Shown here piece by piece: positions 2,350-64,000 of a stretch of DNA of 64,000 bases. The notes beneath the pieces were generated by a model. It ran no database searches. It worked only from the letters and a program-made list of their open reading frames with translations, and was not told the origin of the DNA. This DNA comes from a bacterium. Lineage in GTDB: Bacteria; Oederibacteriota; Muellerivitia; Muellerivitales; Muellerivitaceae. Position 1 is the first letter of the stretch; every line of letters begins with the position of its first letter. The stretch spans positions 1-64,000 of the forward strand of contig DASZRK010000015.1 of the NCBI GenBank assembly GCA_035549195.1. The letters run 5' to 3'. The translations under genes and the position numbers were made by a program.

Positions 2350-3696
2350 CTAGGCTTTGATCTCCAGAAGAAGGGGCCACCAGGTCTCCACCCGGGTCCC
2401 TTCTTGGGGGCCGCTGGACATGACCACCCGCCCCCCATGGTTCTCCAGGGCCTGCCGGACGATGGAAAGCCCAAGCCCCGTCCCGAATTTTTCGACCGCT
2501 TTGGCGTTGGTGGCGCGGAAGAATTGTTGGAAAAGCTTTTTTTGTTGCTTGGCGGGGACGCCGATCCCTTCATCCTGGACGCTGAGGACCAGCCAATCCC
2601 CTTCCGGTTTGAACTCGACGACAACATGGCTCTTCCCTTCCGGCGTATATTTCACCGCGTTGGAAAGGAGGTTATCGAGCACCTTTCCGAAGGCCTCCGG
2701 GTCGGCCAACAACCGGGTCCCCGGGTCGCCATGCAATTGGAACTCGATCCCCTTGGGGCGTGCCAGCGGTTCCAGGGCCTGGACTTTCCGGAGGGCCGCC
2801 TCATAGACATCGATCCATTCTTTGCGGAGCGGGACCTCGGCGGCCTCGGTCCGGGTCAACCAGGCCAGGTCCTCGATCAGTTGTAAAAGGACCCATACCC
2901 TTTTTTTCGCGGACTGGATGGCGGCCTGGGCGCCTTCGGCCTCCGCGGGCAAGGCGGTCTCGACCGAGGTCAGGTCGAAATCCATCTCGACCACCGGGTT
3001 CTTCAGCTGGGCGACCACTTGTTTCAGGAATTGGGATTTGAAGTTGTTCATCTGACGCAAGGCCTCGTTGGCGGTCTTCAATTTTTCCCCCGTGGTTTCC
3101 AGTTCGGTTTGCTTCAAGGCCAGGTCCCCTGAAAGCCGGGACAAAAAATACCAAAGACCCATGACCGCCAGGGAATAGGCGGCTAGGACCGCCGGACGGC
3201 CATGGAGGGGAAGGACCGGTCCTTCCGACCAAAGACCGGGCTCCGGACCGTGGATCGTCTCCAAAAGGAAAAGGAGCCAAGGGAGGGCCAGGGCGGCCGA
3301 GGCATAGGCCAGGCTCTCCCACTGGCTGAAAAGGATGGCGCTGATGGCCAAATGGAACAGGTAAAGGAAGAAGAGGGGGTTCCCTGTGCCGCCGCTCAAA
3401 GCCAACATCACCGTTAAAAGGACAAGGTCCCCGGCCATTTGCCCGTGGAGCAAGTGCCACGCGGCCTCCACCTCCGTGCCGGGCGCCTTCCTCCAACGCT
3501 CCACCATCCAGAGGTAGAGGCCGTTCAAGGCCCCTAAAAGCAGGAGACAGATTCCCAGTTGGCCATAAGGAATGTTCAAGGACAGGAAGCCGGGCGCCAC
3601 CAAAAGGAGCACGGACCCGCCAGCCACCGCCCCCCAGCGTAGGCGAATGAGCCAGGGAAGGCGGACCTGGAAAAGTTCATGGTCGAAAGGGATCAA
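2350..3696 (-). CDS. Membrane histidine-kinase-like protein lacking the phospho-acceptor His
   Basis: 448 aa starting with TTG (GGAG six bases upstream). About six hydrophobic segments span residues 15-190, then a coiled stretch, a HisKA-like helix and a complete HATPase_c domain: N box LLSNAVKYTP, G1 DEGIG, F box LFQQFF, G2 FGTGLGLSIV. The H box that normally reads SHELRTP is AQLKNP: Ala229 replaces the phosphorylated His and Gln230 the neighbouring Glu. So the protein should bind ATP but cannot autophosphorylate at the usual site. It may be a pseudokinase, an allosteric partner of another kinase, or phosphorylated elsewhere. No response regulator is adjacent. A Crp/Fnr-type site precedes it. 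Confidence 0.85.
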   Translation of the reverse strand: MIPFDHELFQVRLPWLIRLRWGAVAGGSVLLLVAPGFLSLNIPYGQLGICLLLLGALNGLYLWMVERWRKAPGTEVEAAWHLLHGQMAGDLVLLTVMLALSGGTGNPLFFLYLFHLAISAILFSQWESLAYASAALALPWLLFLLETIHGPEPGLWSEGPVLPLHGRPAVLAAYSLAVMGLWYFLSRLSGDLALKQTELETTGEKLKTANEALRQMNNFKSQFLKQVVAQLKNPVVEMDFDLTSVETALPAEAEGAQAAIQSAKKRVWVLLQLIEDLAWLTRTEAAEVPLRKEWIDVYEAALRKVQALEPLARPKGIEFQLHGDPGTRLLADPEAFGKVLDNLLSNAVKYTPEGKSHVVVEFKPEGDWLVLSVQDEGIGVPAKQQKKLFQQFFRATNAKAVEKFGTGLGLSIVRQALENHGGRVVMSSGPQEGTRVETWWPLLLEIKA

Positions 3697-7843: not shown

Positions 7844-8597
7844 AAAGGATCGAGTGGACCATTTCCAGGATCCCGAGGCGCATCATGGGGGTGTCGGGCT
7901 TTCCCCAGGCCAGGCCGGCTAAGGCCCTGAGGGCGGCGTAAAGAGGGGCCGCCATGAGGATGAGTTTCCCGCCACAGGTGTCCCCTAAGGCTTCCACCCA
8001 AAGGGCATACAACAGGATCACCCACCATCCTTGCGAAAGGCGGTCCGCTGGAAGGGATCGGCGGCCCCTGCGGGAATCTTCCAGCCACTTCTGGCGGATC
8101 TTCACGCCGGCCAGGCTCAGCAGGAAATAACCGCCGAAAAATCCCCAAAGCCAGAAGGCCCAAAAAAGATCGTGGGAAGGACCGCAAAGATAAAGCACGG
8201 GTGTGGCCAAGGTCAAAGCTGAAAAGCCGAGGACTTCAGCCAACGGGAAACGAAGGTTCCGGTTCCAGGCGATCAGGAGCGTCAGCACCAAGCCTAAGGG
8301 AACACCGAACCGACCGGCCATCCGAAGGGAAAGGGCCGGGGCCCAGGCCACGAACCCCCAGATCCCGGCCAAGGCGGACAACCCCAACAGGGCCAGAAAA
8401 ATCCGCGCCCGATAAGTCCGGGCGGGATCCACATTCCGGTATTGTCGGTAGATGTTCCAAGGACCCCGGAGGGAAAAAGCGGTCAACCAAAGGATCGAAA
8501 CGGCCAAGGCCGCCCAGGAGAAGCGCCCCAGGCCGATCCAACCCGCGGCCAAGCCGATGAAAAGCCCGTTCCACGCACCATGTTCTTTGGGAAGCAT
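7809..8597 (-). CDS. YwiC-like membrane protein
   Basis: 262 aa with about eight hydrophobic helices. The N-terminus PKEHGAWNGLFIGLAAGW is the hallmark of the YwiC-like family (PREHGAW); a central loop has a conserved YRARIF...LLGLSAL stretch and the end contains LGILEMVHSILFTSIW. The family has no established biochemical role, though relatives are found near anaerobic respiration genes in some Firmicutes. Here it stands alone, convergent with and overlapping the diguanylate cyclase gene by 35 bp. The start is ATG 8597; the Shine-Dalgarno is weak, so a nearby alternative is possible. Confidence 0.75.
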   Translation of the reverse strand: MLPKEHGAWNGLFIGLAAGWIGLGRFSWAALAVSILWLTAFSLRGPWNIYRQYRNVDPARTYRARIFLALLGLSALAGIWGFVAWAPALSLRMAGRFGVPLGLVLTLLIAWNRNLRFPLAEVLGFSALTLATPVLYLCGPSHDLFWAFWLWGFFGGYFLLSLAGVKIRQKWLEDSRRGRRSLPADRLSQGWWVILLYALWVEALGDTCGGKLILMAAPLYAALRALAGLAWGKPDTPMMRLGILEMVHSILFTSIWAWTWSR

Positions 8598-43041: not shown

Positions 43042-44208
43042 TTAAAGCCCCATCATCAGGCCCGTGGAGAGGGGGACATCCCGTCCAGTGCCGTTGGAGG
43101 AAAGGATGAGGTTATAGCCCCCCTCGACAAAGGCATAGGCGTCCTTGGCCATCTCGAACTGGAACCCGGCCGCGACCCTCACATCCGGGTCCAGCGAAAC
43201 GGCCTCACCCGCGTCCGAGTAGGCGACCCCCAGGTCCAGTCCCCCCTCGGCCGAAAGATAAGGGCGGACCCCTTTCGGCAGGAGACAAAGCCGCAGAACG
43301 GGGAGGAAGGCCAACCCGGTCTCCGAGAGGAACCCCGAATCATTGATCGTCGAGAAGTCGGTCTTTTGGAATTCCAGACCCAGCGAAAGGCCGTCGAACC
43401 ACTCGAAACCGAAGCCCACCGATCCGGCCGGGCCCCAGGAATAGGTGGAACGGCCCGACAGGGGAAGGTCCAGGCCCGCCGCGCAGGTCAGGAACCATTG
43501 GCCGTTCGGGGGCGCGGAGGGCTTTGCCGGAAGGGACGCCCTGCTCTCCTGGACGGCCAGGGCCTGGGGCTGGAACTCCAACATCGGGGCGGGAAGGCTT
43601 TCCCAGCCATGGCGGTCCGTGGAGGTCAGCAGGAAGCGGTAGAGCTTGTCCTTCTTCAGGTTCTTGAGGTCGATCCGGCTTTCGGTGACGGGTCCGTCGT
43701 TGAGTTTTCGGACCGGGTTCCCATCCTCGTCGGCGAGATAAAGGTTATAGCCCGCGATCGTGGACAGGTCCCTTTCGTCCCAACGGAGGGTCGCCTGACC
43801 CGCCGACCACTCCACTTGGAAACCTTCCGGGACCGGAAGCGTTGGGTCCTTGGGCACCACCTTCAGCCGGGCCTGGGGACTTTCCACGCCCTTCGCGTCC
43901 ACCGACGAGACGCCCACTTCATAGGTCTTCCCGATCTCGAAATGGCCGAGGATGATCTCCGTGTCCCGGATGGGTTGGGGGGTGAGGCAGGTGGCCCGGT
44001 CCGCGCCCGGGCGTTTCCAATAGACCCGGTAGCCCTGGAGGCCCTGGGTCTTGGGCGCGGTCCATTGAAGGACCAATTTCCCCTGGGACTGACCGGCCTT
44101 CAAATGGGCCGGGGCCGGGACCTCGGCGCCGCAAAGGGTCCCGGCCATCCAGAGCATCGCCGCCCATAAAAGGGTCCGCTGGTCCTTGGTCTTTTCTTTA
44201 TTTTCCAA
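43042..44208 (-). CDS. Exported protein: two fibronectin type III domains + outer-membrane beta-barrel-like domain
   Basis: 388 aa if started at TTG 44208 (AAGGG 8 nt upstream), which gives a signal peptide (TLLWAAMLWMAGTLCGAEV). Residues about 30-125 and 125-225 are FN3 domains (GYRVYWKRPG...YEVGVSSVDAKGVES; GYNLYLADEDGNPV...YRFLLTSTDRHGWES). After a Pro linker the last 140 residues look like an eight-stranded OmpA-type barrel with alternating aromatic strands (YSWGPAGSVGFGFEWFDGLSLGLEF... YAFVEGGYNLILSS). The domain mix suggests a surface protein with binding repeats. The longer frame (from 44313) is an alternative. Confidence 0.7.
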   Translation of the reverse strand: MENKEKTKDQRTLLWAAMLWMAGTLCGAEVPAPAHLKAGQSQGKLVLQWTAPKTQGLQGYRVYWKRPGADRATCLTPQPIRDTEIILGHFEIGKTYEVGVSSVDAKGVESPQARLKVVPKDPTLPVPEGFQVEWSAGQATLRWDERDLSTIAGYNLYLADEDGNPVRKLNDGPVTESRIDLKNLKKDKLYRFLLTSTDRHGWESLPAPMLEFQPQALAVQESRASLPAKPSAPPNGQWFLTCAAGLDLPLSGRSTYSWGPAGSVGFGFEWFDGLSLGLEFQKTDFSTINDSGFLSETGLAFLPVLRLCLLPKGVRPYLSAEGGLDLGVAYSDAGEAVSLDPDVRVAAGFQFEMAKDAYAFVEGGYNLILSSNGTGRDVPLSTGLMMGL

Positions 44209-44355
44209 ATGGCACCCTTTTGCCCAGAGTGAGCTCCGCCCTTCCTGCCGCCTTGTCGGCCATTCTAGCCTCCAGACCCCGGATTCCCGGCAATGGAAAA
44301 AGCCCACTTTCATTGCTCCAAGGGCCTTTCCGGAAGGCCCCGGGCCGGAGGGCCC

Positions 44356-44383
44356 TTGAATTAAAATATTAAGAAAGTATAAA
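44356..44383 (+). promoter_or_regulatory. Sigma-70-type promoter of the riboswitch/KimA-like transcript
   Basis: TTGAAT (44356-44361), 16-bp spacer, TATAAA (44378-44383). The expected start is near 44390, just before the riboswitch. Confidence 0.8.
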
Positions 44384-44393
44384 GATGCACCTT

Positions 44394-44531
44394 AATGCCG
44401 AGTCGGACAAGCCTTTTGGCCTGTCCGAACGGGGGACCCAAGTTCTTGGGGCGAATCCTTATCCGAAAAGAAAGACCGGACGAGGAAGGCGAGCCGTTCC
44501 CGCCGAGCCCGACAGCTAACCTCGTAGGCTT
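44394..44531 (+). promoter_or_regulatory. c-di-AMP riboswitch (ydaO-yuaA type)
   Basis: Key conserved elements in order: GGGGGACCCA (from 44431), a short loop, TTGGGGCGAATCC (from 44445), a variable arm, and the highly conserved 3' end CCGAGCCCGACAGCTAACCT then CGTAGGC (ending 44529). GCCGAG at 44397-44402 can pair with CTCG..GGC at 44521-44529 to close P1. This matches the known ydaO c-di-AMP aptamer. AGGAGG (44533-44538) begins a few bases after P1 and no terminator intervenes, so control is probably translational, shutting the downstream transporter off when c-di-AMP is high. Confidence 0.92.
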
Positions 44532-44548
44532 CAGGAGGCGTCACCCCT

Positions 44549-46384
44549 ATGTCCGATCCCAAATCATCCATCAAGGTCCATCAGCTCGGTTGGGTCCTGG
44601 TCTTCGCCATCGTTTACGCGGATATCGGGACCTCGGTCTTTTACGTTCCCAGCATTCTTTATGATTCCATCGGCTACCTGGCCACCCTGGCCCAGTTCAT
44701 CTGCACCGGGGTCTTCATCACCATCGCCTTGAAATACGTCGAGATCTGCGACCGCTGTCCCGACGGCGGCGGCGTGGTTTCCATCGTGCGCGAGGCCTTT
44801 TCCGCGTTGGAATTCCTTCCTTTGGTGGGCGGCTCCTTCATCACCGTCGATTACTTCCTGACCTCGGCCATTTCCGGCGTTTCGGGCCTCTATTACCTCT
44901 CCAGCCTGATGCCCAGTACCAAGGACCTGGTCCTCCCCGCCTCCATGATCCTTTTCTTGGTCCTCATCCTGGTCAACATCATCGGGATCAAGGAATCGGC
45001 TTCGGTCAATTCCACCTTCGCCACCGTGGAGATCGCCGTCATCCTCCTGCTGCTGGGAGTCTCCTTTTTCCACATCGCCGTCACCCCTTCGCTGTCCTTC
45101 GCCGGCCTCTGGCACAGCATCATCCACCCCGGGGTCCCCTTGACCGTCAGTTCCCTTGCCATCGGCTACGCCACCACCTGGCTGGCCTATTCGGGGCTGG
45201 AATCGGTGGCCCAGATCTCAGGCTCCATGCGCCTCCCGGTGAAGTCCACCGCCAACAAGGCCATGTGGTGGGTCATCGGCATGATCGTGGTGGTCTCCTC
45301 CCCCATGACCTCCGTCATCCTTTACATCCTCCCCGACGAGGTCAAACGGGCCCAGGCCGATTCCTTTCTTTCGGCGCTTGGCTTCACCGTGGGCGGCCCG
45401 CTCCTGGGGCTGGCGGTGGTCCTGACCGCCTCCACCCTCCTTTTCATGGCTTGCAACACCGCCATCGTGGGCAACTACCACGTGAACGTCCGGCTCTCGG
45501 ACCTGGGCTTCCTCCCTTCTTTCTTGCGGAAGCGCCACCCGACCCTGGGGACCCCTTACCTCTCCATCCTCATCTCCGGGCTCGTCCCCATGGCCATCAT
45601 CCTCATCACCCGGGCCAACGTGGATGCCTTGGGCGATCTCTATAACTTCGGCCTTTTGGGCACCTTGTCCCTTTCTTCCCTGGCCATCGACCGGCTCCGT
45701 TGGCGCGACGGGGATCGGGGTTTCAAGTTCTGGACCGGCGCCTTCACCACCCTGGCCCTCCTGGCGGCCTGGTTCATCAACATGTTCCATAAGCCCGATG
45801 CCCTGTTCTTCGGCGGGACCCTGGCGGTCATTCTCGTGGGGGTGGGGGTCTGGCACCGGATCGGCGCCGCCCGCAAGGCTTCTTCCCAGTTCGCGGCGGC
45901 GGAAGCGACCGTCGCCGATCTTCCGGAGGCCTCCAATATCCTGACCCTGGAGGAGGCCTTGGAGGCTTCGGCCTTCGAATCCTCCCCCATCATCGTGGCC
46001 CTGCGTTTCGTGAACGAAAAACTCCTGGAGGACGCGGCGGTCTTCGCCCGCGGCATGAAAAAAGGGAATGTTTATGTGATCTATATCGATGAGATGCCCG
46101 GGCTTTTCCTGCCCCAGGAGATCAAGCCCAGCGAGAACGCCGTGAATGTTTTGGTCGGATCATGCGCTTACCTTCAAAAGATCGGGATCAATGCCATCCC
46201 CGTCTGGCGCATGGCCGAGGACGCGGGCACTTCCCTGGCGGAGGCCGCCACCGAATTGAAGGTCGCCAAGGTCTTCGTGGGTTCGTCCAAGCGGACCTTC
46301 TTCTGGCGGATGGTGAGGGGACGGATGCTCAAAAAACTCGCCCAGAACCTGCCCGAGTCGGCCGAACTGGTCATCGTCGGATAG
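44549..46384 (+). CDS. KimA-like APC potassium transporter with C-terminal USP-like domain
   Basis: 611 aa. Twelve TM helices of the APC fold: helix 1 contains FAIVYADIGTSVFYVPSI, followed by DGGGVVSIVREAFSALEFLPLVGGSFITVDYFLTSAISG, the pattern of KimA/YdaO-type carriers. Residues about 460-611 form a cytosolic UspA-like domain (PIIVALRFVNEKLLEDAAVFARGMKKGNVYVIYID... ELVIVG). B. subtilis KimA is a 607-aa K+/H+ symporter of this layout and is also preceded by a ydaO riboswitch, so K+ import is likely. The kdp operon lies next door. AGGAGG is 10 nt before the ATG. Confidence 0.88.
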   Translation: MSDPKSSIKVHQLGWVLVFAIVYADIGTSVFYVPSILYDSIGYLATLAQFICTGVFITIALKYVEICDRCPDGGGVVSIVREAFSALEFLPLVGGSFITVDYFLTSAISGVSGLYYLSSLMPSTKDLVLPASMILFLVLILVNIIGIKESASVNSTFATVEIAVILLLLGVSFFHIAVTPSLSFAGLWHSIIHPGVPLTVSSLAIGYATTWLAYSGLESVAQISGSMRLPVKSTANKAMWWVIGMIVVVSSPMTSVILYILPDEVKRAQADSFLSALGFTVGGPLLGLAVVLTASTLLFMACNTAIVGNYHVNVRLSDLGFLPSFLRKRHPTLGTPYLSILISGLVPMAIILITRANVDALGDLYNFGLLGTLSLSSLAIDRLRWRDGDRGFKFWTGAFTTLALLAAWFINMFHKPDALFFGGTLAVILVGVGVWHRIGAARKASSQFAAAEATVADLPEASNILTLEEALEASAFESSPIIVALRFVNEKLLEDAAVFARGMKKGNVYVIYIDEMPGLFLPQEIKPSENAVNVLVGSCAYLQKIGINAIPVWRMAEDAGTSLAEAATELKVAKVFVGSSKRTFFWRMVRGRMLKKLAQNLPESAELVIVG

Positions 46385-47078: not shown

Positions 47079-47681
47079 CTACTTAGAAGCCGCCGGGACC
47101 AAAGCGTCCAAGGCCAGGTTCAACTTCAGCACATTCACGCCGGGGTCCCCGATGAAACCCAACCAACGGCCTTGGGTGTTCTGGGCGATCAGCTCCTTCA
47201 CCTTTTCCAAGGGAAGTTTTCGGGTTTTGGCCACGCGGGAAGCCTGGTACTCGGCGGCGGCCGGACTGATATGGGGATCCAACCCGGACCCCGAGGCGGT
47301 CACCAGATCCATAGGGATCGGCTTGCCGGCCATGTCAGGGTCGGCCTTCTTCAACGCGTCGATGCGTCCTTGGACCGTGTCCAAGAACCCGGGGTTCGTT
47401 GGTCCCAAATTCGAGCCCGTCGAGGAAGAGGCGTTATAGCCATAAGGCCCCGTGGCCGAGGGCCTGCTCCAGAAATACTTGGGATCGTCGAAGGACTGGC
47501 CGATCAATTCCGACCCCACCCTCTTCCCATTCACTTCGATCAAGCTTCCGTCCGCTTGGCGGGGAAATAGGGCCTTCCCCAAAAGGGTCGTCAGGCCCGG
47601 ATAGACTAGGCCCAGGAGGACCGTGAAGACCGCCACGAAGATCAGCGAATGTTTGGTTTGAACCATAATGTCTTTAAGCAT
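47079..47681 (-). CDS. kdpC: Potassium-transporting ATPase subunit KdpC
   Basis: 200 aa. One N-terminal TM helix ([23 protein letters not shown]) and a periplasmic domain with the family blocks [31 protein letters not shown] and [19 protein letters not shown]. KdpC stabilises the KdpFABC complex. GGAGG is 6 nt before the ATG, after a hairpin in the spacer to kdpB. Confidence 0.96.
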
Positions 47682-47737: not shown

Positions 47738-49813
47738 TTAAACCAGACCTAAGGCCACCAGGATCACGTCGATCAACTTGATGCCCACGAAGGGCACGAT
47801 CAGCCCACCCACCCCATAGATGAGGAAGTTGTCCTGCAGCAGTTTCGAGGCCGAGGAAGGACGGTATTTCACGCCCCGTAAGGCCAACGGCACCAGGAAC
47901 ACGATGATGACCGCGTTGAAGATGACCGCCGACAGGATGGCCGACTGGGGCGTGGCCAAATGCATGATGTTCAAGGCGTTCAACTCCGGATAGGTGAGGG
48001 CGAAGGCCGCCGGGATGATGGCGAAGTATTTCGCCACGTCGTTGGCGATGGAGAAGGTCGTCAAGGAACCCCGGGTCATCAAGAGCTGTTTCCCGATCTT
48101 GACCACCTCGATCAACTTGGTGGGGTTCGAATCCAGGTCCACCATGTTCCCCGCCTCCTTGGCGGCTTGGGTGCCCGTGTTCATAGCGACCGCCACGTCG
48201 GCCTGGGCCAAGGCCGGCGCGTCATTGGTGCCGTCACCCGCCATGGCCACCAGGCGGCCTCCGGCTTGGGATTCCCGGATGAGCTTGAGCTTCGCTTCGG
48301 GCGTCGCTTGGGCCAAAAAGTCGTCCACACCGGCCTCCGCCGCGATGGCCGCGGCCGTCAGTGGATTGTCCCCCGTGATCATGACAGTCTTGATGCCCAT
48401 GCGGCGAAGCTCCGCGAACCGTTCCTGGATGCCCCCTTTCACGATGTCCTTCAAGTGGATGACGCCCAGCACTTCCTTACCTTCGGCCACCACCAGGGGG
48501 GTGCCTCCCCGGCGGGCGATGGCCTCCACCCCCGTGCGCACATCCTCCGGGTACTTCCCGCCCTCTTTCTTCACGTAAGCCTCGATGGCCTCGGCCGCTC
48601 CCTTACGAATGGAGCGTTTCCCGATATCCACCCCGCTCATGCGGGTCTGGGCGGTGAAGGGTACGAAGGTGGCCTTCAATTCATGGATCTCCTGGCCCCG
48701 GAGGCCGTATTTCTCCTTGGCCAGGACCACGATGCTGCGCCCTTCCGGCGTCTCGTCGGCCAGCGAGGATAGCTGGGCGGCCTCCGCCAGTTCCCGGACC
48801 AGAACACCGTCCGCCGGGATGAACTCGGCGGCTTGGCGATTGCCCAGGGTGATGGTCCCTGTCTTATCGAGCAGGAGCATATCCACGTCACCCGCCGCCT
48901 CCACCGCCCGGCCCGACATGGCGATGACGTTGGCTTGGATCATACGGTCCATACCGGCGATCCCGATGGCGGACAAAAGTCCGCCGATGGTGGTGGGGGC
49001 TAGGCAGACGAAGAGGGCCACCAACACCGTCACGGTCACGACCTTGCCCGCGCCCGAGGCCGCCACGCTATAAAAGGAAAAAGGCAGGAGGGTCGCGCAG
49101 ACGATGAGGAACACGATGGTGAGGGCCGCCAACAGGATGTTCAAGGCGATCTCGTTGGGGGTTTTCTGGCGCTTGGCGCCCTCGACCATGGAGATCATGC
49201 GATCCAGGAAGGATTCGCCCGGATTGGAGGAGACCTTCACGATGAGCCAGTCGGAGATGACCCGCGTTCCCCCCGTGACGGCGCTTCGGTCCCCGCCCGA
49301 TTCGCGCACCACAGGCGCTGACTCGCCCGTGATGGCGCTCTCATCCACCATGGCGATCCCGATCACCGCTTCGCCGTCGGCGGGGATGAAATCCCCCGCC
49401 TCCACCAACACTAGGTCGCCCTTACGCAGGTCGCCCGAAAGGACCTCGGTCCGCTTGGAATCCTTGTCGGCCTTGGCCATCTTCTTGGCCTTCACTTCCT
49501 GGCGGCTCTTGCGAAGGGTGTCCGCCTGGGCCTTGCCCCGCCCTTCCGCCATGGCCTCGGCGAAATTGGCGAAGACCACCGTGAACCACAACCAAAGGGA
49601 TACGGCAAAAATGAAGCCCGAGGCGGCTTCACCATGGCCCCCCAAGGATTGCAGCCACAACCCCGTGGTCAGGATGCTTCCCACATAGACCGTGAACATG
49701 ACCGGGTTCTTGATCATGTGGACCGGGTTCAGCTTCTTGAAGGATTCCAGGATCGCCTTGCGGGTGATCTCCCCTTCGAATAATTTGCGTTCTTTCACGT
49801 GTTCGGTCGTCAT
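47738..49813 (-). CDS. kdpB: Potassium-transporting P-type ATPase subunit KdpB
   Basis: 691 aa, IA-type P-type ATPase. The phosphorylation site is [18 protein letters not shown]; the actuator TGESAPV and the hinge [12 protein letters not shown] with [17 protein letters not shown] are all intact. It hydrolyses ATP to drive K+ uptake through KdpA. ATG 49813 has GGAG just upstream; a longer frame extending 41 codons into the kdpA spacer is basic and unlike KdpB, and is rejected. Confidence 0.97.
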
Positions 49814-49874
49814 TTTTTTCTCCGTTCCTTTGGGTTCAGTCCCTTGGGCCATTCGGCCCTTTTTCTCGCCTTTC

Positions 49875-49897
49875 GTGCGGGTCCTAGGGACCCGCAC
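49875..49897 (-). other. Strong intercistronic hairpin kdpA-kdpB
   Basis: Perfect 10-bp inverted repeat GTGCGGGTCC-TAG-GGACCCGCAC. On the leftward mRNA it is followed by purines, not T, so it is not a classic terminator. Likely mRNA processing or stability element. The 126-bp spacer is unusually long for kdpA-kdpB. Confidence 0.6.
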
Positions 49898-49940
49898 GCG
49901 TTTTGGCCGCGCCTTCCGGCGCCCTTTCCTTTTCATGCCC

Positions 49941-51731
49941 TTACATATGGATCATCTTCAGGTGTTCCACGATGGGCCCCAGGGCCAGGGCCGGGAAGAA
50001 GGTCAGGGCCCCCACGATGATGACCGTGCAAAAAAGCATCACGACGAACAGGAGCGTATGGGTCGGGAGCGTCCCCGCGCTCTCCGGCACCACTTTCTTC
50101 CTGGCCAGGCTCCCGGCGAGCGCCAGCACCGGCACGGCCAACCAGAAACGACCGAACCACATGGCGGCTCCTCCCATCAGGTCATAAAGGGTGTTCCCCG
50201 AAAGACCCGCGAAGGCACTGCCGTTGTTATTGGACTGGGAATCGAAAGCGTAAAGGAGCTCGGAGAAACCATGGGCGCCCGGGTTGTTGGTGCCTGCCCC
50301 GCCGGTCGCCACCGCCACCGCCGTGCAGATAAGGACCAGCAGGGGCGGGATGAGGATCATGATCGAGGCCATCTTCATCTCGTAGGCCTGGATCTTCTTG
50401 CCCAGGTATTCGGGCGTGCGGCCCACCATGAGCCCCGCCACGAAGACCGCCAGGATGACGAAGGCCAGCATGCCGTAAAGGCCCGATCCGACCCCGCCGA
50501 AGGAGACCTCGCCCAGCATGATCATCCACATGGGGACCATCCCCCCGAGGGGAGTATAGGAATCGTGCATGGAATTGACGGACCCGTTGGAAGCCGCCGT
50601 GGTCACGGAAGCCCACAGGGCCGAATTCACGATGCCAAAGCGCACTTCCTTGCCTTCCATGTTGCCGTTGGCCAGGACTTCCCCACCGGCCCCCGCCGTG
50701 AGCTTGTTCAAAAGAGGGTTCCCGCTTTGTTCCTGTTGGGCGCAGAGATAAAGCATGGGTGCCAACAGAAGGAACATGGCGGCTAGGATGGCCCATCCTT
50801 GGCGCATATCCTTCACCATGGCGCCCAGGGTGAAACAGAGGGCGGTCGGGATGAGAAGGATGGCCAAAAGTTCGAGGAGATCCGTAAAGGGCGTCGGGTT
50901 CTCATAGGGGTGGGCCGAGTTCACGTTGAAATAACCGCCCCCATTGGTCCCCAGCATCTTGATGGCCTCCTGGGAAGCCACGGGCCCCAAAGCGATGGAC
51001 TGTTCATTGACCACCACGTGGTCCATTTTTGGTTTCCCGGCGATGGTCACGGGGTTCCCCTTGTCGTCGACCGCTGGCTTGTCATAAGACGTCGGTTGGA
51101 CCAGGGAAGCCGTCGCCGTATTGGCGAAGGTCTGGGGCGATCCTTGCTGGATCAAGATCAGGGCCAAGATCAGGCTCAGAGGCAGGAGGATGTAAAGGGT
51201 CCCCCGGGTCATATCGACCCAGAAATTCCCGAGTTTGGTGGTCTCTTTCCGCACCAAACCCCGGATGAGGGCGACCAGGGTGGCCATGCCGGAGGCGGCG
51301 CAAAGGAAGTTATGGACCGCCAACCCCATCATCTGGGTCAGGTAGCTCATGGTGGTCTCGCCGCCATAGAACTGCCAATTGGTATTGGAGATGAAGCTGA
51401 TAGCCGTGTTGAAGGCCAGGTCCGGCGGGACCGGCGATTGACCGGCCGGGTTCAAAGGCAAAGAAGCCTGGAGCCTTTCGATCCCATAGAGCAGAATTCC
51501 TCCCACGATGTTGAAGAGGAGCATGGCCAGGGCATAACCCTTCCAGTCCATCTCCTCCTTCGGCTTGATGCCGCCGAGCTTATAAAGAAGACCTTCCAGC
51601 CAACCGAACAGCTTCCCTAAAAAGAAAGGTTTGTCCCCATAGACCTTGGCCATATAGGTCCCCAGGGGCCTCGCCAGGACCAGGAGCACCCCGAAATAAA
51701 ACAGGATCTGGATCCATTGATTCGTCGTCAT
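49941..51731 (-). CDS. kdpA: Potassium-transporting ATPase subunit KdpA
   Basis: 596 aa, about ten TM helices, homologous to K+ channels. The four selectivity-filter regions are visible: [49 protein letters not shown] and [19 protein letters not shown], with EMK near the end of a helix (VMSF-like QAYEMKMA). It selects K+ for the KdpFABC pump. It starts 21 bp after kdpF. Confidence 0.97.
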
Positions 51732-51940: not shown

Positions 51941-52134
51941 TTCCTCCTTTTCCCGCTTCCCTTTTTCCGGGGAATGCTTTTTTTCCGTTTTAAGGTCCGG
52001 GACCTTCCGCCCTTTTCCTTCCGGACCCCGGTTTTTTTCCGCAGGAACCAAAAATGGCTTCCCAAGGCAATGGCCAGGCAAAGGGAACAGATGGAAAGGA
52101 AGACTTCCCAAAACAGCACATGGTCTTCGTTCAT
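51937..52134 (-). CDS. Small membrane protein at the head of the kdp operon, 65 aa
   Basis: ATG 52134 with AAGGAG 7 nt upstream. A short acidic N-terminus (MNEDHVLFWEV) is followed by one TM helix (FLSICSLCLAIALGSHFWFL) and a long, strongly basic cytosolic tail (about 35 residues, KRKKSIPRKKGSGKRRK at the end). The stop overlaps the next ORF (ATGA). The basic tail could interact with membrane lipids, nucleic acid or KdpD. Unknown family. Confidence 0.7.
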   Translation of the reverse strand: MNEDHVLFWEVFLSICSLCLAIALGSHFWFLRKKTGVRKEKGGRSRTLKRKKSIPRKKGSGKRRK

Positions 52135-52326
52135 GGGACGGCTCCTTTCTTCATCCTCCGCCCGGGCTTGGAAAACACCTATGTCCTGGGTCATGGGAAA
52201 GATAGGACGGAAATGGATAAGGATGCTGTTAAGAGGGGAGGGGAAGGCATTAGGAAAAGATTAAAAACACGGCTTTCTGACCCCTCACATGGACCCCCCT
52301 TGGTCCTGGGACTTAAAATCAAGGCC

Positions 52327-55005
52327 ATGAACGACAAAAGGCCCGACCCGGACAAGCTCCTGGACCGCGTGAAGATGGAAGCGGCGCTGGAAAAACGGGG
52401 CAAATTGAAGATCTTCTTTGGCGCCTCACCCGGGGTGGGCAAGACCTTCGCCATGTTGGAGGCGGCCCGCGCGAAGAAGAACGAGGGGCTCGATGTGGTC
52501 GTGGGACTCCTCGAGACCCATGGCCGCAAGGAGACCGCCGCCCTCCTGGAAGGGCTGGAGATCCTCCCCCCGCAGGAATTGGAATACCGTGGCACCCAGC
52601 TCAAGGAATTCGACATCGACGCGGCCCTGAAGCGTCGCCCCGACGTTCTGCTCGTTGACGAACTGGCCCACACCAACGCGCCCGGCGCCCGCCACTTGAA
52701 GCGCTGGCAGGACGTGCAGGAACTGCTCGACCTGGGCGTGAACGTCTATTCCACCCTCAATGTCCAGCACCTGGAGAGCCTCAACGACATCGTGGCCCAG
52801 ATCACGGGCGTGACCGTCCGTGAGACCCTGCCGGACAAGGTGCTCCAGGAAGCCGATGAGGTGGAGCTCATCGACCTTCCGCCCGACGACCTCCTCAAGC
52901 GCCTGCAGGAGGGCAAGGTCTATATGGCCGAGGCGGCCCAGCGGGCCGTCCAGAACTTCTTCAAGAAAGGCAACCTCATCGCGCTTCGCGAGATGGCCCT
53001 TCGCACCACCGCCGACCGGGTCAACGACCAGGTGCAGGATTACCGGCGCACCATGGCCATCACCCAGACCTGGGCCACCTCCGACCGCATCCTGGTCTGC
53101 GTCTCGCCCAGCCCCTCGTCCGCGAACCTGGTGCGGGCCGCCCACCGCATGGCCAAATCCCTGCGGTCGGATTGGATCGCCCTTTACGTGGAGATCCCAT
53201 CCCGGGGGGGTGATGAGGCCCGTTCCCAGGCCATCCAGCACCTGCGACTCGCCGAACAATTGGGAGCGGAGACCGCCACCTTGACCGGCAGCGACTTCGC
53301 CGAAGAGGTGATGGACTACGCCAAGGAACGCAACGTCACCAAGATCTTCATCGGGAAGCCCCCGCGTTATTCCTGGCGGAATCTTTTACGGCCATCCCCC
53401 GTGGACCGGCTCCTTCGGGCCAGCGGTGATATCGACATCTATGCCACCCGGGGCGAATCCGCCGATCCACGGGCCCCCGAACGCCCCCGGTTCCAAGGAA
53501 AGGCGGCCGGACAAGGGGAATGGAAGGGTTACCTCTACGCCCTCCTGGGGGTCGCCGCCAGCACCCTCATCTGCTCCTTTATCTATGAATGGTTGGACCT
53601 AGCCAACCTCATCATGGTCTACCTGCTCGGGGTGCTGGCCGTTTCCTACCAGCAGAGCCGGGGGCCCTCGACCCTGGCCTCGGTCCTGAGCGTGCTGGCC
53701 TTCGACTTTTTCTTTGTGCCTCCCCGCTTCACCTTCGCGGTATCCGACACCCAATACATCGTGGTCTTCCTCGTGATGCTGGTCGTGGGTCTGTCCATCA
53801 GCAACCTCACGGTGCGGGTGCGGGACCAGGCCCGGCATTCCCGTCTACGGGAACGCCGCACCGCCGCCCTCTACGCCCTTTCCCGGGAGTTGGCCTCCAC
53901 TTGGGGCACGGCGGAACTATTGGACATCGCCGTCAAGCACATCGCCGAGGTCTTCGAGAGCTCGGTCATCGCCTTCCTGCCCGATGAGCATGGACGGCTG
54001 AAGGTCCAATGCGGGGACATGGGGGCTTTCGACCTGACCTCCAAGGAAATGGGGGTGGCCCATTGGGCCTTCGACCTGGGTCAACCGGCAGGCCGGGGCA
54101 CCGACACCCTGCCGGGGACCGATGCCCTTTACCTGCCCCTGCTCGCTTCCGGCGCCCCCGTGGGGGCGCTGGGCGTGAAACCCCGCCACCCCGAGAAGCT
54201 CTTCATCCCCGAACAGCTCCATCTCCTGGAGGCCTTCGCCCATCAGACCGCCTTGGCCGTGGCGGCCGACAAGCTCCTTCAAAAACAACAACAGACCCAG
54301 ATGGAGGTGGAATCGGAGAAGCTCCGCAGTTCCCTTTTGAGCTCCGTCTCCCATGACCTTCGCACTCCCTTGGCCGCCATCACGGGCTCCATCAGCAGCC
54401 TCCTGCAGAACGGCGAGTCCTTCCCCGCCCCCACCCGGCGGGACCTCTTGGAGAACATCCACGATGAATCGGAACGCCTGGAGCGGCTGGTGAACAACCT
54501 GCTGGAGATGACCAAGCTGGAATCGGGCTCCATCCAGCCCAACAGGGAATTGAACCACCCGGCCGAGGTCATCGGTTCCGCCCTGGCCCGCCTCGACAAG
54601 AAAGCATCGGCCCGCAAGATCACCACCCGCATCCCCCCGGACCTGCCGCTCGTCCCCATGGACAGCCTCTTGATCGAACAGGTCCTGGTGAACCTCGTGG
54701 ACAACGCCTTGAAGTACACCCCCCCCGATTCCCCGGTGGAGATCATCGCGGGGGTGGGGGAAGGTTTCCTGGAGATCGAGGTCGCCGACCGGGGGCCGGG
54801 CCTGCCCGAAGCCGACCTGCCCCGGCTCTTCGAGAAGTTCTACCGGGGTCCCGAACAGGGACGGGCGGCGGGCGCGGGGCTGGGCCTTTCCATCTGCAAG
54901 GGTTTCGTGCAGATCCACGGCGGCTCCATCGAGGCGCGCAACCGTCCGGGCGGCGGGGCGGTCTTCCGGTTCACCCTTCCCCTGGAGGCCGGACATGGCG
55001 GATAA
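52327..55005 (+). CDS. kdpD: Sensor kinase KdpD
   Basis: 892 aa. Order of domains: the KdpD N-terminal domain with a Walker A-like GASPGVGKTFAML (about 33-45) and VDELAHTNAPG, a UspA-like domain (about 250-370), four TM helices (about 400-500), a GAF-like linker and a full histidine kinase with SSVSHDLRTPLAAIT, N box LVDNALKYTP and G2 GAGLGLSICKGF. It senses low K+/ionic stress and phosphorylates KdpE. The start at ATG 52327 has only AAGG 3 nt upstream; the longer frame overlaps the divergent small ORF and is unlike KdpD. KdpE overlaps its end by 11 bp. Confidence 0.96.
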   Translation: MNDKRPDPDKLLDRVKMEAALEKRGKLKIFFGASPGVGKTFAMLEAARAKKNEGLDVVVGLLETHGRKETAALLEGLEILPPQELEYRGTQLKEFDIDAALKRRPDVLLVDELAHTNAPGARHLKRWQDVQELLDLGVNVYSTLNVQHLESLNDIVAQITGVTVRETLPDKVLQEADEVELIDLPPDDLLKRLQEGKVYMAEAAQRAVQNFFKKGNLIALREMALRTTADRVNDQVQDYRRTMAITQTWATSDRILVCVSPSPSSANLVRAAHRMAKSLRSDWIALYVEIPSRGGDEARSQAIQHLRLAEQLGAETATLTGSDFAEEVMDYAKERNVTKIFIGKPPRYSWRNLLRPSPVDRLLRASGDIDIYATRGESADPRAPERPRFQGKAAGQGEWKGYLYALLGVAASTLICSFIYEWLDLANLIMVYLLGVLAVSYQQSRGPSTLASVLSVLAFDFFFVPPRFTFAVSDTQYIVVFLVMLVVGLSISNLTVRVRDQARHSRLRERRTAALYALSRELASTWGTAELLDIAVKHIAEVFESSVIAFLPDEHGRLKVQCGDMGAFDLTSKEMGVAHWAFDLGQPAGRGTDTLPGTDALYLPLLASGAPVGALGVKPRHPEKLFIPEQLHLLEAFAHQTALAVAADKLLQKQQQTQMEVESEKLRSSLLSSVSHDLRTPLAAITGSISSLLQNGESFPAPTRRDLLENIHDESERLERLVNNLLEMTKLESGSIQPNRELNHPAEVIGSALARLDKKASARKITTRIPPDLPLVPMDSLLIEQVLVNLVDNALKYTPPDSPVEIIAGVGEGFLEIEVADRGPGLPEADLPRLFEKFYRGPEQGRAAGAGLGLSICKGFVQIHGGSIEARNRPGGGAVFRFTLPLEAGHGG

Positions 55006-55693
55006 AGGCACGGTCCTGGTGGTGGAGGACGAACTCCCCATCCGGCGCTTCCTCAAACCCTCCCTGCAAAGCCACGGCTTCAAGGTCGTCGAGGCGGAAA
55101 GGGGCGAGGAAGCGATCGCCCTGGCCTCGTCCCACAATCCCGACATCATCCTGCTGGACCTGGGACTTCCCGATCTGGACGGCCTGGAGGTCGTGAAGCG
55201 CCTTCGGGAGTGGACCGCCACCCCCATCATCATCCTGACCGCCCGGGGCAAGGAGAAGGACAAGATCGCGGGACTCGACGCGGGCGCCGACGACTACCTG
55301 ACCAAACCCTTCGACGTGGGCGAGCTCATGGCCCGCATCCGGGCGGCGCTCCGCCATTCCCAACGGCTCAAGGCCGGGGGCAAATCGGACGCCGTCTTCG
55401 AAGCCCCCGACTTCAGGGTGGACCTTTCCGCCCGGGTCGTCACCGTCCGCGGGAAGGAGACCCACCTGACCCCCAATGAGTACGATCTTTTGGCCTGCCT
55501 CATCCGGCACGCGGGCAAGGTCGTCACCCAGAAGCAGATCCTCCAGGAGGTCTGGGGCCCCGCCAGCGGCGACCAGGTCCAATACCTGCGCATCTACATC
55601 TATCAATTACGCCGTAAGCTCGAAGCCGACCCCGACCGGCCCCATTACCTGGTCACCGAGTCCGGCGTCGGCTACCGCCTCAAGACCGATTGA
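54995..55693 (+). CDS. kdpE: Response regulator KdpE
   Basis: 232 aa. The receiver has DE at the acidic pocket (VVEDELPIRRFL), phospho-acceptor Asp in ILLDLGLPD, Thr in LTARG and Lys in TKPFDVGEL. The OmpR/PhoB-type winged helix ends with LRIYIYQLRRKLEADPDRPHYLVTESGVGYRL. Activates kdpFABC. Its ATG lies within kdpD, so the pair is coupled. Confidence 0.96.
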   Translation: MADKGTVLVVEDELPIRRFLKPSLQSHGFKVVEAERGEEAIALASSHNPDIILLDLGLPDLDGLEVVKRLREWTATPIIILTARGKEKDKIAGLDAGADDYLTKPFDVGELMARIRAALRHSQRLKAGGKSDAVFEAPDFRVDLSARVVTVRGKETHLTPNEYDLLACLIRHAGKVVTQKQILQEVWGPASGDQVQYLRIYIYQLRRKLEADPDRPHYLVTESGVGYRLKTD

Positions 55694-61885: not shown

Positions 61886-63418
61886 ATGAGACCGATCCGC
61901 AAGCCCGCCTTTTCTGAATGGGCCGCCTATGTTTTTTCCCTGGCCGTCATGGCGATCTGCAACATCATCGCCCTTCTCTTCCTTTACCATCTGGCCATCA
62001 CCAATATCCTGATGATCTATCTCATTGGGATCCTCGCCGTGGTCTCCCGCACCGGCTACGGGCCTTCGGTCCTGGCCTGCGTGGTGGGCGTGCTGAGCTT
62101 CGACTTCTTCATCGTCCCGCCGCGCCTCGACTTCACGCCCGGCCATTACCAATATGTGATCACCCTGGTCGTGGTCCTGCTCTTCACCCTTTCCCTGAGC
62201 CGCATGACCGCCCGTATCCGCGCCGAGGCCCAGGCCAGCCGCCGGCGCGAGGCCCAGACCGCCGCCCTCTTCGAGCTCAGCCGCCGCCTGGCCGCCGAGG
62301 CCGAGAAGGACCCGGACTTCAACGGGGCCGTGGCCCTCATCGGGGACATCTTCGAGTGCCATTCGGTCCTCCTGGTCCCGGGACCCGATGGTTCCCTCGG
62401 ACCCCGGGCCGGAACGCAAGGACCTTCCCCCTGGAACGACCTCAAGAAGGAAGCCGCCCAGGCGGCCTTCCAAAAGGGGGACATGGTGGACCTGGGCACG
62501 CCGGACTTTCCCGGGACCGGCTGTCTTTTCGTCCCCCTCCTGGCCCCCGAAGGGCCCATGGGAGTCCTAGGGCTCCAACCCCGGGCGGGAACGCTGGGTC
62601 CCAGCCCCGACCAGCGCCACTTCCTCCAGGCCCTGGCCAACTTGATCGGGGCCATCCAGCAGAAGGCCCGATTGGAGGAGGAGAACCGGAAGAACCGCCT
62701 CAAGGCCGAAGCCGAGATGGTGCGAAACGCCCTGCTGAGTTCCGTGTCCCACGACCTCAGGACGCCCTTGGCCGTCATCACCGGGTCCGCCAGCAGCCTT
62801 TTGGACCCCGGGAGCCGGCTGAGCGACGCTTCGCGCCGCGAGCTCCTGCAGGACATCCTGGGCGAGTCCGATCGCTTGAACCGTTTCGTGGGGAACCTGC
62901 TGGAGATGACCCGGTTGGACTCGGGGGAAATGCTCCTCAAGAAGGAACTCCAACCCCTGGAGGAGGTGCTGGGGCCCGCCCTGGGACGGTTGGAGGGCAA
63001 GCTCCAGGGCCGCTCCCTCGTCACCGACCTCCCCCCCACCCTGCCCATGGTCCCCATGGACGGCCTGCTGATGGAGCAGGTCTTCGTCAACCTCATCGAG
63101 AACGCCCTGAAATACACCCCGGCGGGCTCCCCCATCCGTATCGGCGCCCGGGTCCAAGGGGACCATCTGGAGTTGGAGGTGAGCGACCAGGGGCCGGGCT
63201 TGGCGGCGGGCGATGAGGAAAAGGTCTTCGAGAAGTTCTACCGGGGCCGCGCCGGCTCCCAGAAGGAAGGCGTGGGCCTGGGATTGGCCATCTGCCGGGG
63301 GGTGGTGGAGGCCCATGGCGGGAGGATCGGCGCCGGGAACCGGCCCGAAGGCGGCGCCCGCTTTTACTTCACCCTGCCGTTGGCCGAAAGGGCCCTGACC
63401 CTGGAAAGGAAGCGTTGA
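61886..63418 (+). CDS. KdpD-like histidine kinase lacking the KdpD sensor and USP domains
   Basis: 510 aa. It begins where the membrane part of KdpD would: four TM helices (about 12-105, including NILMIYLIGILAVVSRTGYGPSVLACVVGVLSFDFF, which is also present in KdpD), a GAF-like linker, then a complete kinase: SSVSHDLRTPLAVIT, N box LIENALKYTP, DQGPGL and GVGLGLAICRG. It is a clear paralogue of KdpD at 52327 without its ATP-binding KdpD and UspA domains. It is paired with the response regulator at 63420 and next to amt3, so it may regulate nitrogen rather than potassium genes. Function inferred. Confidence 0.88.
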   Translation: MRPIRKPAFSEWAAYVFSLAVMAICNIIALLFLYHLAITNILMIYLIGILAVVSRTGYGPSVLACVVGVLSFDFFIVPPRLDFTPGHYQYVITLVVVLLFTLSLSRMTARIRAEAQASRRREAQTAALFELSRRLAAEAEKDPDFNGAVALIGDIFECHSVLLVPGPDGSLGPRAGTQGPSPWNDLKKEAAQAAFQKGDMVDLGTPDFPGTGCLFVPLLAPEGPMGVLGLQPRAGTLGPSPDQRHFLQALANLIGAIQQKARLEEENRKNRLKAEAEMVRNALLSSVSHDLRTPLAVITGSASSLLDPGSRLSDASRRELLQDILGESDRLNRFVGNLLEMTRLDSGEMLLKKELQPLEEVLGPALGRLEGKLQGRSLVTDLPPTLPMVPMDGLLMEQVFVNLIENALKYTPAGSPIRIGARVQGDHLELEVSDQGPGLAAGDEEKVFEKFYRGRAGSQKEGVGLGLAICRGVVEAHGGRIGAGNRPEGGARFYFTLPLAERALTLERKR

Positions 63419-63419
63419 T

Positions 63420-64000
63420 ATGGCCGAAGCCCTGCCGACCATCCTGATCATCGAGGACGAGGCGCCCATCCGGCGTTTCCTGCGGCTTTCACTGGAGGAC
63501 CGGGATTTCCGTCTGGTGGAATCCTCCACCGGCGAGGAAGGGCTCGCCCTGGCCTCCTCCCACAACCCCGAGGTCATCCTGCTCGACCTGGGGTTGCCCG
63601 ACATGGACGGCCTGGAAGTGATCCAAAGGACCCGGGCCTGGACCCCGGTCCCCATCATCGTGCTGTCCGCCCGGGACAAGGAACAGGACAAGATCAAGGC
63701 GCTCGAGTCGGGGGCCGACGACTACCTCACCAAACCCTTCAGCGTGGGCGAACTGACCGCCCGCATCAAGGTGGCCCTGCGCCACTCCAACCGCACCGGG
63801 GGCGCCTCCCCGAGCGGCCTTTACCAGAACGGGGTCCTGAAGGTGGACCTGGAGAACCGCCAGGTCTTTTTGGACGGCAAGGAAGTGCACCTGACGCCCA
63901 CCGAATACAAGTTGCTCGCCATCCTGGCGCGCCGACCGGGCAAACTGGTCACCCGTTGGGAATTGCTGCGGGACGTCTGGGGACCGGCGGGAGGGGACTC
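63420..64000 (+). CDS. KdpE-like response regulator (3' end outside window)
   Basis: About 193 residues before the window ends. Receiver: acidic pair in LIIEDEAPIRRFL, phospho-Asp in VILLDLGLPDMDG, LSARDKEQD and TKPFSVGEL. The OmpR/PhoB-type DNA-binding domain starts LENRQVFLDGKEVHLTPTEYKLL. It is a close relative of KdpE at 54995 and begins 1 bp after the kinase stop. Confidence 0.92.
   Translation, partial: MAEALPTILIIEDEAPIRRFLRLSLEDRDFRLVESSTGEEGLALASSHNPEVILLDLGLPDMDGLEVIQRTRAWTPVPIIVLSARDKEQDKIKALESGADDYLTKPFSVGELTARIKVALRHSNRTGGASPSGLYQNGVLKVDLENRQVFLDGKEVHLTPTEYKLLAILARRPGKLVTRWELLRDVWGPAGGD

Follow-up and report, generated by a model that had tools for sequence, protein, structure and literature searches.

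A c-di-AMP riboswitch abutting the Shine-Dalgarno sequence of a predicted K+ permease gene in the candidate phylum FCPU426

The sequence considered here is a stretch of 64 kb (the window) from an uncultured bacterium of the candidate phylum FCPU426. It carries a c-di-AMP (ydaO/yuaA) riboswitch aptamer, RF00379, at 44386-44545 on the forward strand, and directly after it, on the same strand, the gene of a permease (44549-46384). A preliminary description, made from the sequence alone, had recognised the element as a ydaO-type riboswitch and proposed a covariance-model search with RF00379. This search (cmscan, Rfam) matched the full model, positions 1-134, with 75.6 bits (E=9.4e-16), twice the gathering score of 38 bits. 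RF00379 is the sole Rfam family above its gathering threshold within the window, and a search of the whole genome (3.2 Mb, 97.9% complete) returned the window element as its one copy. The parts read by eye also lie where they had been placed: in the Rfam alignment, the P1 helix is formed by GCC at 44397-44399 (+) and GGC at 44527-44529 (+), comprising three standard pairs and one U-U, and both the GGGGGACCCA / TTGGGGCGAATCC arm and the 3' hallmark GACAGCTAACCTCGTAGGC are present. Judged by its sequence, the element is a genuine member of a known c-di-AMP riboswitch class in a little-studied host phylum. It shares with the class the full-length model match and the association with K+ uptake genes, and differs in its host, a member of FCPU426, and in a transcription start that is predicted only a few nucleotides 5' of P1.

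The downstream gene encodes a protein of 611 aa of the APC superfamily (Pfam AA_permease_2, 4e-28), which is predicted to import K+ and is a distant relative of KimA. Its sole match in the PDB is KimA (6s3k; E=1.4e-11, 47 bits, residues 51-414), to which it is about 22-27% identical. Among the residues whose roles in the K+ site of KimA have been described, the permease shares D36, Y43, D117, Y118, T121, S125, E233 and Y377 with KimA, and has Ser in place of T230, which is not essential in KimA (PMC6994465). Permease residues D25, Y32, T105, E218 and Y365, corresponding to KimA D36, Y43, T121, E233 and Y377, are invariant in our alignment A1. The retention of these residues therefore supports, by analogy with KimA, a K+/H+ symport function. 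As in Bacillus subtilis, a permease with the KimA K+-site residues thus stands behind a c-di-AMP riboswitch. The c-di-AMP pocket of KimA, formed by His579-Asn580-Gln581-Ser582 (PMC10284832; numbering checked against the KimA sequence), has no counterpart in the window permease or in its orthologue from genome G029, both of which lack the HNQ[S/T] motif, and the position of KimA R337 is occupied by Ser in the alignment. The C-terminal domain, PPAT-like in KimA, looks weakly USP-like in the window permease (Usp, 16.4 bits, E=0.014, below the cut-off). An AlphaFold2 model built from a nine-sequence alignment reached a mean pLDDT of 48.7, too low for a fold search. Of the earlier label of a KimA-like K+ transporter, the K+-type permease with the KimA K+-site residues thus stands, while close kinship with KimA does not.

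Given this distance from KimA, the permease could carry another substrate, such as an amino acid or other osmolyte, so that the switch would serve general osmolyte balance. Amino-acid permeases are indeed its best matches in Pfam and NCBIfam, although none of the NCBIfam matches reaches its cut-off. Yet the K+-site residues are kept, KimA is the only structure matched, and kdp genes lie near the permease both in the window and in the related loci L014, L028 and L029; we consider a substrate other than K+ unlikely.

In the window, the kdp genes run towards the permease. On the reverse strand lie kdpC (47079-47681), kdpB (47738-49936) and kdpA (49941-51731), each identified by an NCBIfam equivalog above its cut-off, followed by a kdpF-like ORF; all four are convergent to the permease. 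The divergent genes kdpD and kdpE-like follow on the forward strand. The kdpD ORF as listed (52054-55005) contains the Pfam domains KdpD, Usp, HisKA and HATPase_c; its true start probably lies further downstream, because the N-terminal part of the ORF overlaps the kdpF-like ORF. The response regulator gene (54995-55693) has KdpE as its best NCBIfam match, at 262.8 against an equivalog cut-off of 325. Two types of USP motif have been distinguished in KdpD proteins (PMC4686210). The window KdpD carries the E. coli type, RXXXR-X8-WXAXY, and lacks the S. aureus-type c-di-AMP motif, SXS-X20-FTAXY, for which reason it was rejected as a c-di-AMP-binding KdpD. A second KdpD/KdpE-like pair is found at 61886-64000 and continues past the window to contig position 64112; its histidine kinase has the architecture DUF4118-GAF-HisKA-HATPase, without the KdpD sensor domain, and its response regulator is 59% identical to the KdpE-like protein described above.

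The suggestion that this organism makes c-di-AMP is supported by its genome. A search for cyclases and phosphodiesterases, as had been proposed, yielded a CdaA-type diadenylate cyclase (TIGR00159, 215.4 bits against the NCBIfam equivalog cut-off of 188.8) with a DAC domain (PF02457, E=4.6e-42), and, as the only candidate phosphodiesterase, a DHH/DHHA1 protein that stands alone and has 332 aa; no HD-type phosphodiesterase (7TMR-HDED) was found in the genome. Two Omp85 matches support the view of the host as a diderm.

The leader that carries the aptamer is short. A predicted sigma-70-like promoter, TTGAAT-16-TATAAA, occupies 44356-44383 (+), its -10 element ending 13 nt before P1. It is the site that the preliminary description had named: it is present and is the top site of the leader under looser scoring, where 2% of shuffles score as high, but it was missed by a strict consensus scan, since TATAAA does not end in T. 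Similar promoter-like sites, with the -10 end 8-17 nt 5' of P1, occur in 10 of 12 leaders, and in most sister leaders this distance is 12-14 nt; several of these sites, taken singly, are no better than shuffles, and their weight lies in the shared position. On the other side of the aptamer, the Shine-Dalgarno (SD) sequence AGGAGG, also noted earlier, is located at 44533-44538 (+), 3 nt after the end of P1 (44529) and 10 nt before the ATG at 44549. All nine family leaders that were folded have GGAGG 3-4 nt 3' of P1. No terminator-like site was found in 44200-44700, and the 19 nt between P1 and the ATG hardly leave room for one; translational control, as first proposed, is therefore the natural inference. 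The leader differs in this respect from the Bacillus kdp switch, which has an intrinsic terminator where the window has an SD sequence directly after P1. The c-di-AMP riboswitch is best known for transcription termination, and the present arrangement suggests a terminator-free, translational form of the class.

We therefore regard it as likely that the riboswitch, predicted to lie at the extreme 5' end of the permease mRNA, represses translation when the ligand locks P1. Abundant c-di-AMP produced by CdaA, a sign of sufficient K+, would bind the aptamer and stabilise P1; the locked helix, ending 3 nt before the SD sequence, would block ribosome binding and keep permease translation off. When c-di-AMP falls, P1 would open and the permease would be made. 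Repression is expected because the end of P1 falls inside the footprint of an initiating ribosome. When the nine family leaders were folded with a nearest-neighbour model under three settings of P1 (forced, free or forbidden), the accessibility of the SD sequence did not change consistently, and the folds do not decide the direction of the switch; the switching step must consequently rest on steric occlusion, which lies outside such models. The shortness of P1, with its three standard pairs and one U-U, also speaks against this mechanism. The off direction is suggested by precedent: in Bacillus thuringiensis, binding of c-di-AMP to the kdp switch turns the K+ uptake operon off (PMC6488665), which by analogy would count in favour of an OFF switch here.

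Two other modes of action were considered. In one, an anti-SD sequence in the 5' flank (ACUCCG in the sisters, ACCUU in the window) would pair with the SD sequence and thereby extend the ligand-bound P1. CTCCG does occur 5' of P1 in five of six permease leaders, perfectly complementary to CGGAG at the SD. However, the predicted -10 element ends 12-14 nt before P1 in the permease leaders, which would put the transcription start at or beyond CTCCG; this sequence is more likely the stretch between the -10 element and the start site. Moreover, there is no covariation, since the five copies are identical, and the window offers only CCTT/GAGG. Lying 5' of the predicted transcription start, this helix (CTCCG/CGGAG) was not adopted, and we judge it quite unlikely. 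In the other, the switch would act as an ON switch: CCUC in the 3' strand of P2 would pair with GAGG of the SD sequence in the ligand-free RNA, and the ligand would lock CCUC in P2, leaving the SD sequence open to the ribosome. The window has a suitable CCUC at 44520-44523, and its SD sequence is mostly paired when the RNA is folded as predicted without ligand (unpaired probability 0.05), less so once P1 and P2 are imposed (0.21). Of the five sister leaders of this gene, however, three have CCCC instead and no equivalent pairing with GGAGG, the sister folds follow no consistent trend, and a rise of K+ uptake at high c-di-AMP would be the opposite of the described kdp switch. Such a mechanism is very unlikely, and occlusion of the SD sequence by a ligand-locked P1 is retained as the preferred reading.

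An RF00379 switch is present in nine of the 45 FCPU426 genomes. Seven of these belong to the window's family, which counts eight genomes in all; of the other two, one comes from the same order and one from elsewhere in the phylum. DAC domains were found in 34 of the 45, so the signal is much more widespread than the switch. Homologous elements precede orthologous permease genes in five sister genomes. For a decayed or non-binding relic no point in favour was found, and the score at twice the gathering threshold, the conserved core and the retention of the element, with differing variable arms, in front of the orthologues in five further genomes make it extremely unlikely. Relatives of the downstream gene with 76-80% identity are found at L014, L015 and L017. 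At L017, no RF00379 match precedes the permease orthologue, even at a permissive threshold, and a degenerate riboswitch there was rejected.

Four sister genomes (G024, G026, G027 and G028) encode a second permease, absent from the window's genome, which follows an RF00379 element of its own and is a far closer relative of KimA. It matches KimA with 194 bits, compared with 47 for the window permease, and the pocket motif, as HNQT, is kept in all four proteins. G027 and G028 carry both switch-gene units in tandem, approximately 2.2 kb apart. In G026 and G027, a GTG frame of about 16 codons (L028, about 3023-3072; L015, about 8282-8330) lies between the P1-side SD sequence and the second permease and overlaps the permease start, an arrangement in which translational coupling is possible.

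In two further members of the phylum, G006 and G023, an RF00379 switch lies 5' of kdpA. These recall the kdpFABC switch of B. thuringiensis, for which it was reported that the riboswitch and an effective KdpDE are mutually exclusive in the control of kdp and that switch-controlled kdp is seemingly restricted to Bacillales (PMC6488665). The switch class upstream of kdp is the same, yet both genomes lie outside Bacillales; the genome of the window differs, its switch being in front of the permease rather than kdp. The G006 leader has a terminator hairpin and T tract after the aptamer, as in Bacillus, whereas the window leader is terminator-free, so both modes appear in one phylum. The KdpD of G006 lacks kinase domains, consistent with the published exclusion (PMC6488665). 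In G023, the same-order relative, a full-length KdpD with kinase domains is divergent from the switch-led kdp operon (L024, 6512-11713). A clear KdpE was not found in this genome, where the best match reaches just 34% identity; the exclusion rule is thus challenged rather than broken.

What is new here is the host phylum and the detail of which K+ genes the switch controls; the riboswitch class and its biology are known. RNA-based c-di-AMP control of K+ is thus extended to an uncultured candidate phylum, and the distribution suggests that the controlled gene has been swapped among relatives, being a KimA-like permease, a divergent permease or kdp. Possible, though tentative and on balance doubtful, is a broader reading for FCPU426, in which the riboswitch would be the main or only c-di-AMP control of a pocketless APC/KUP-type permease, acting by occlusion through a P1 that abuts the SD sequence, while in the same-order relative a switch and a full-length KdpD would share one kdp operon, which sits uneasily with the published exclusion. 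Control at the RNA level may then stand in for control by c-di-AMP at the protein level, which makes this locus a testable case.

Two minor observations concern the relatives. The aptamers of G029 and G027 carry long insertions in their variable arms (L014, 5766-5999; L015, 5809-5998) and reach no more than about 38 bits in Rfam, although their core looks intact. In three relatives, a Na/H-exchanger-type antiporter with a TrkA_C domain is encoded 5' of the riboswitch gene (L014, 2857-4905; L025, 5263-7317; L027, 1724-3772); in some other bacteria, domains of this type act as c-di-AMP receptors.
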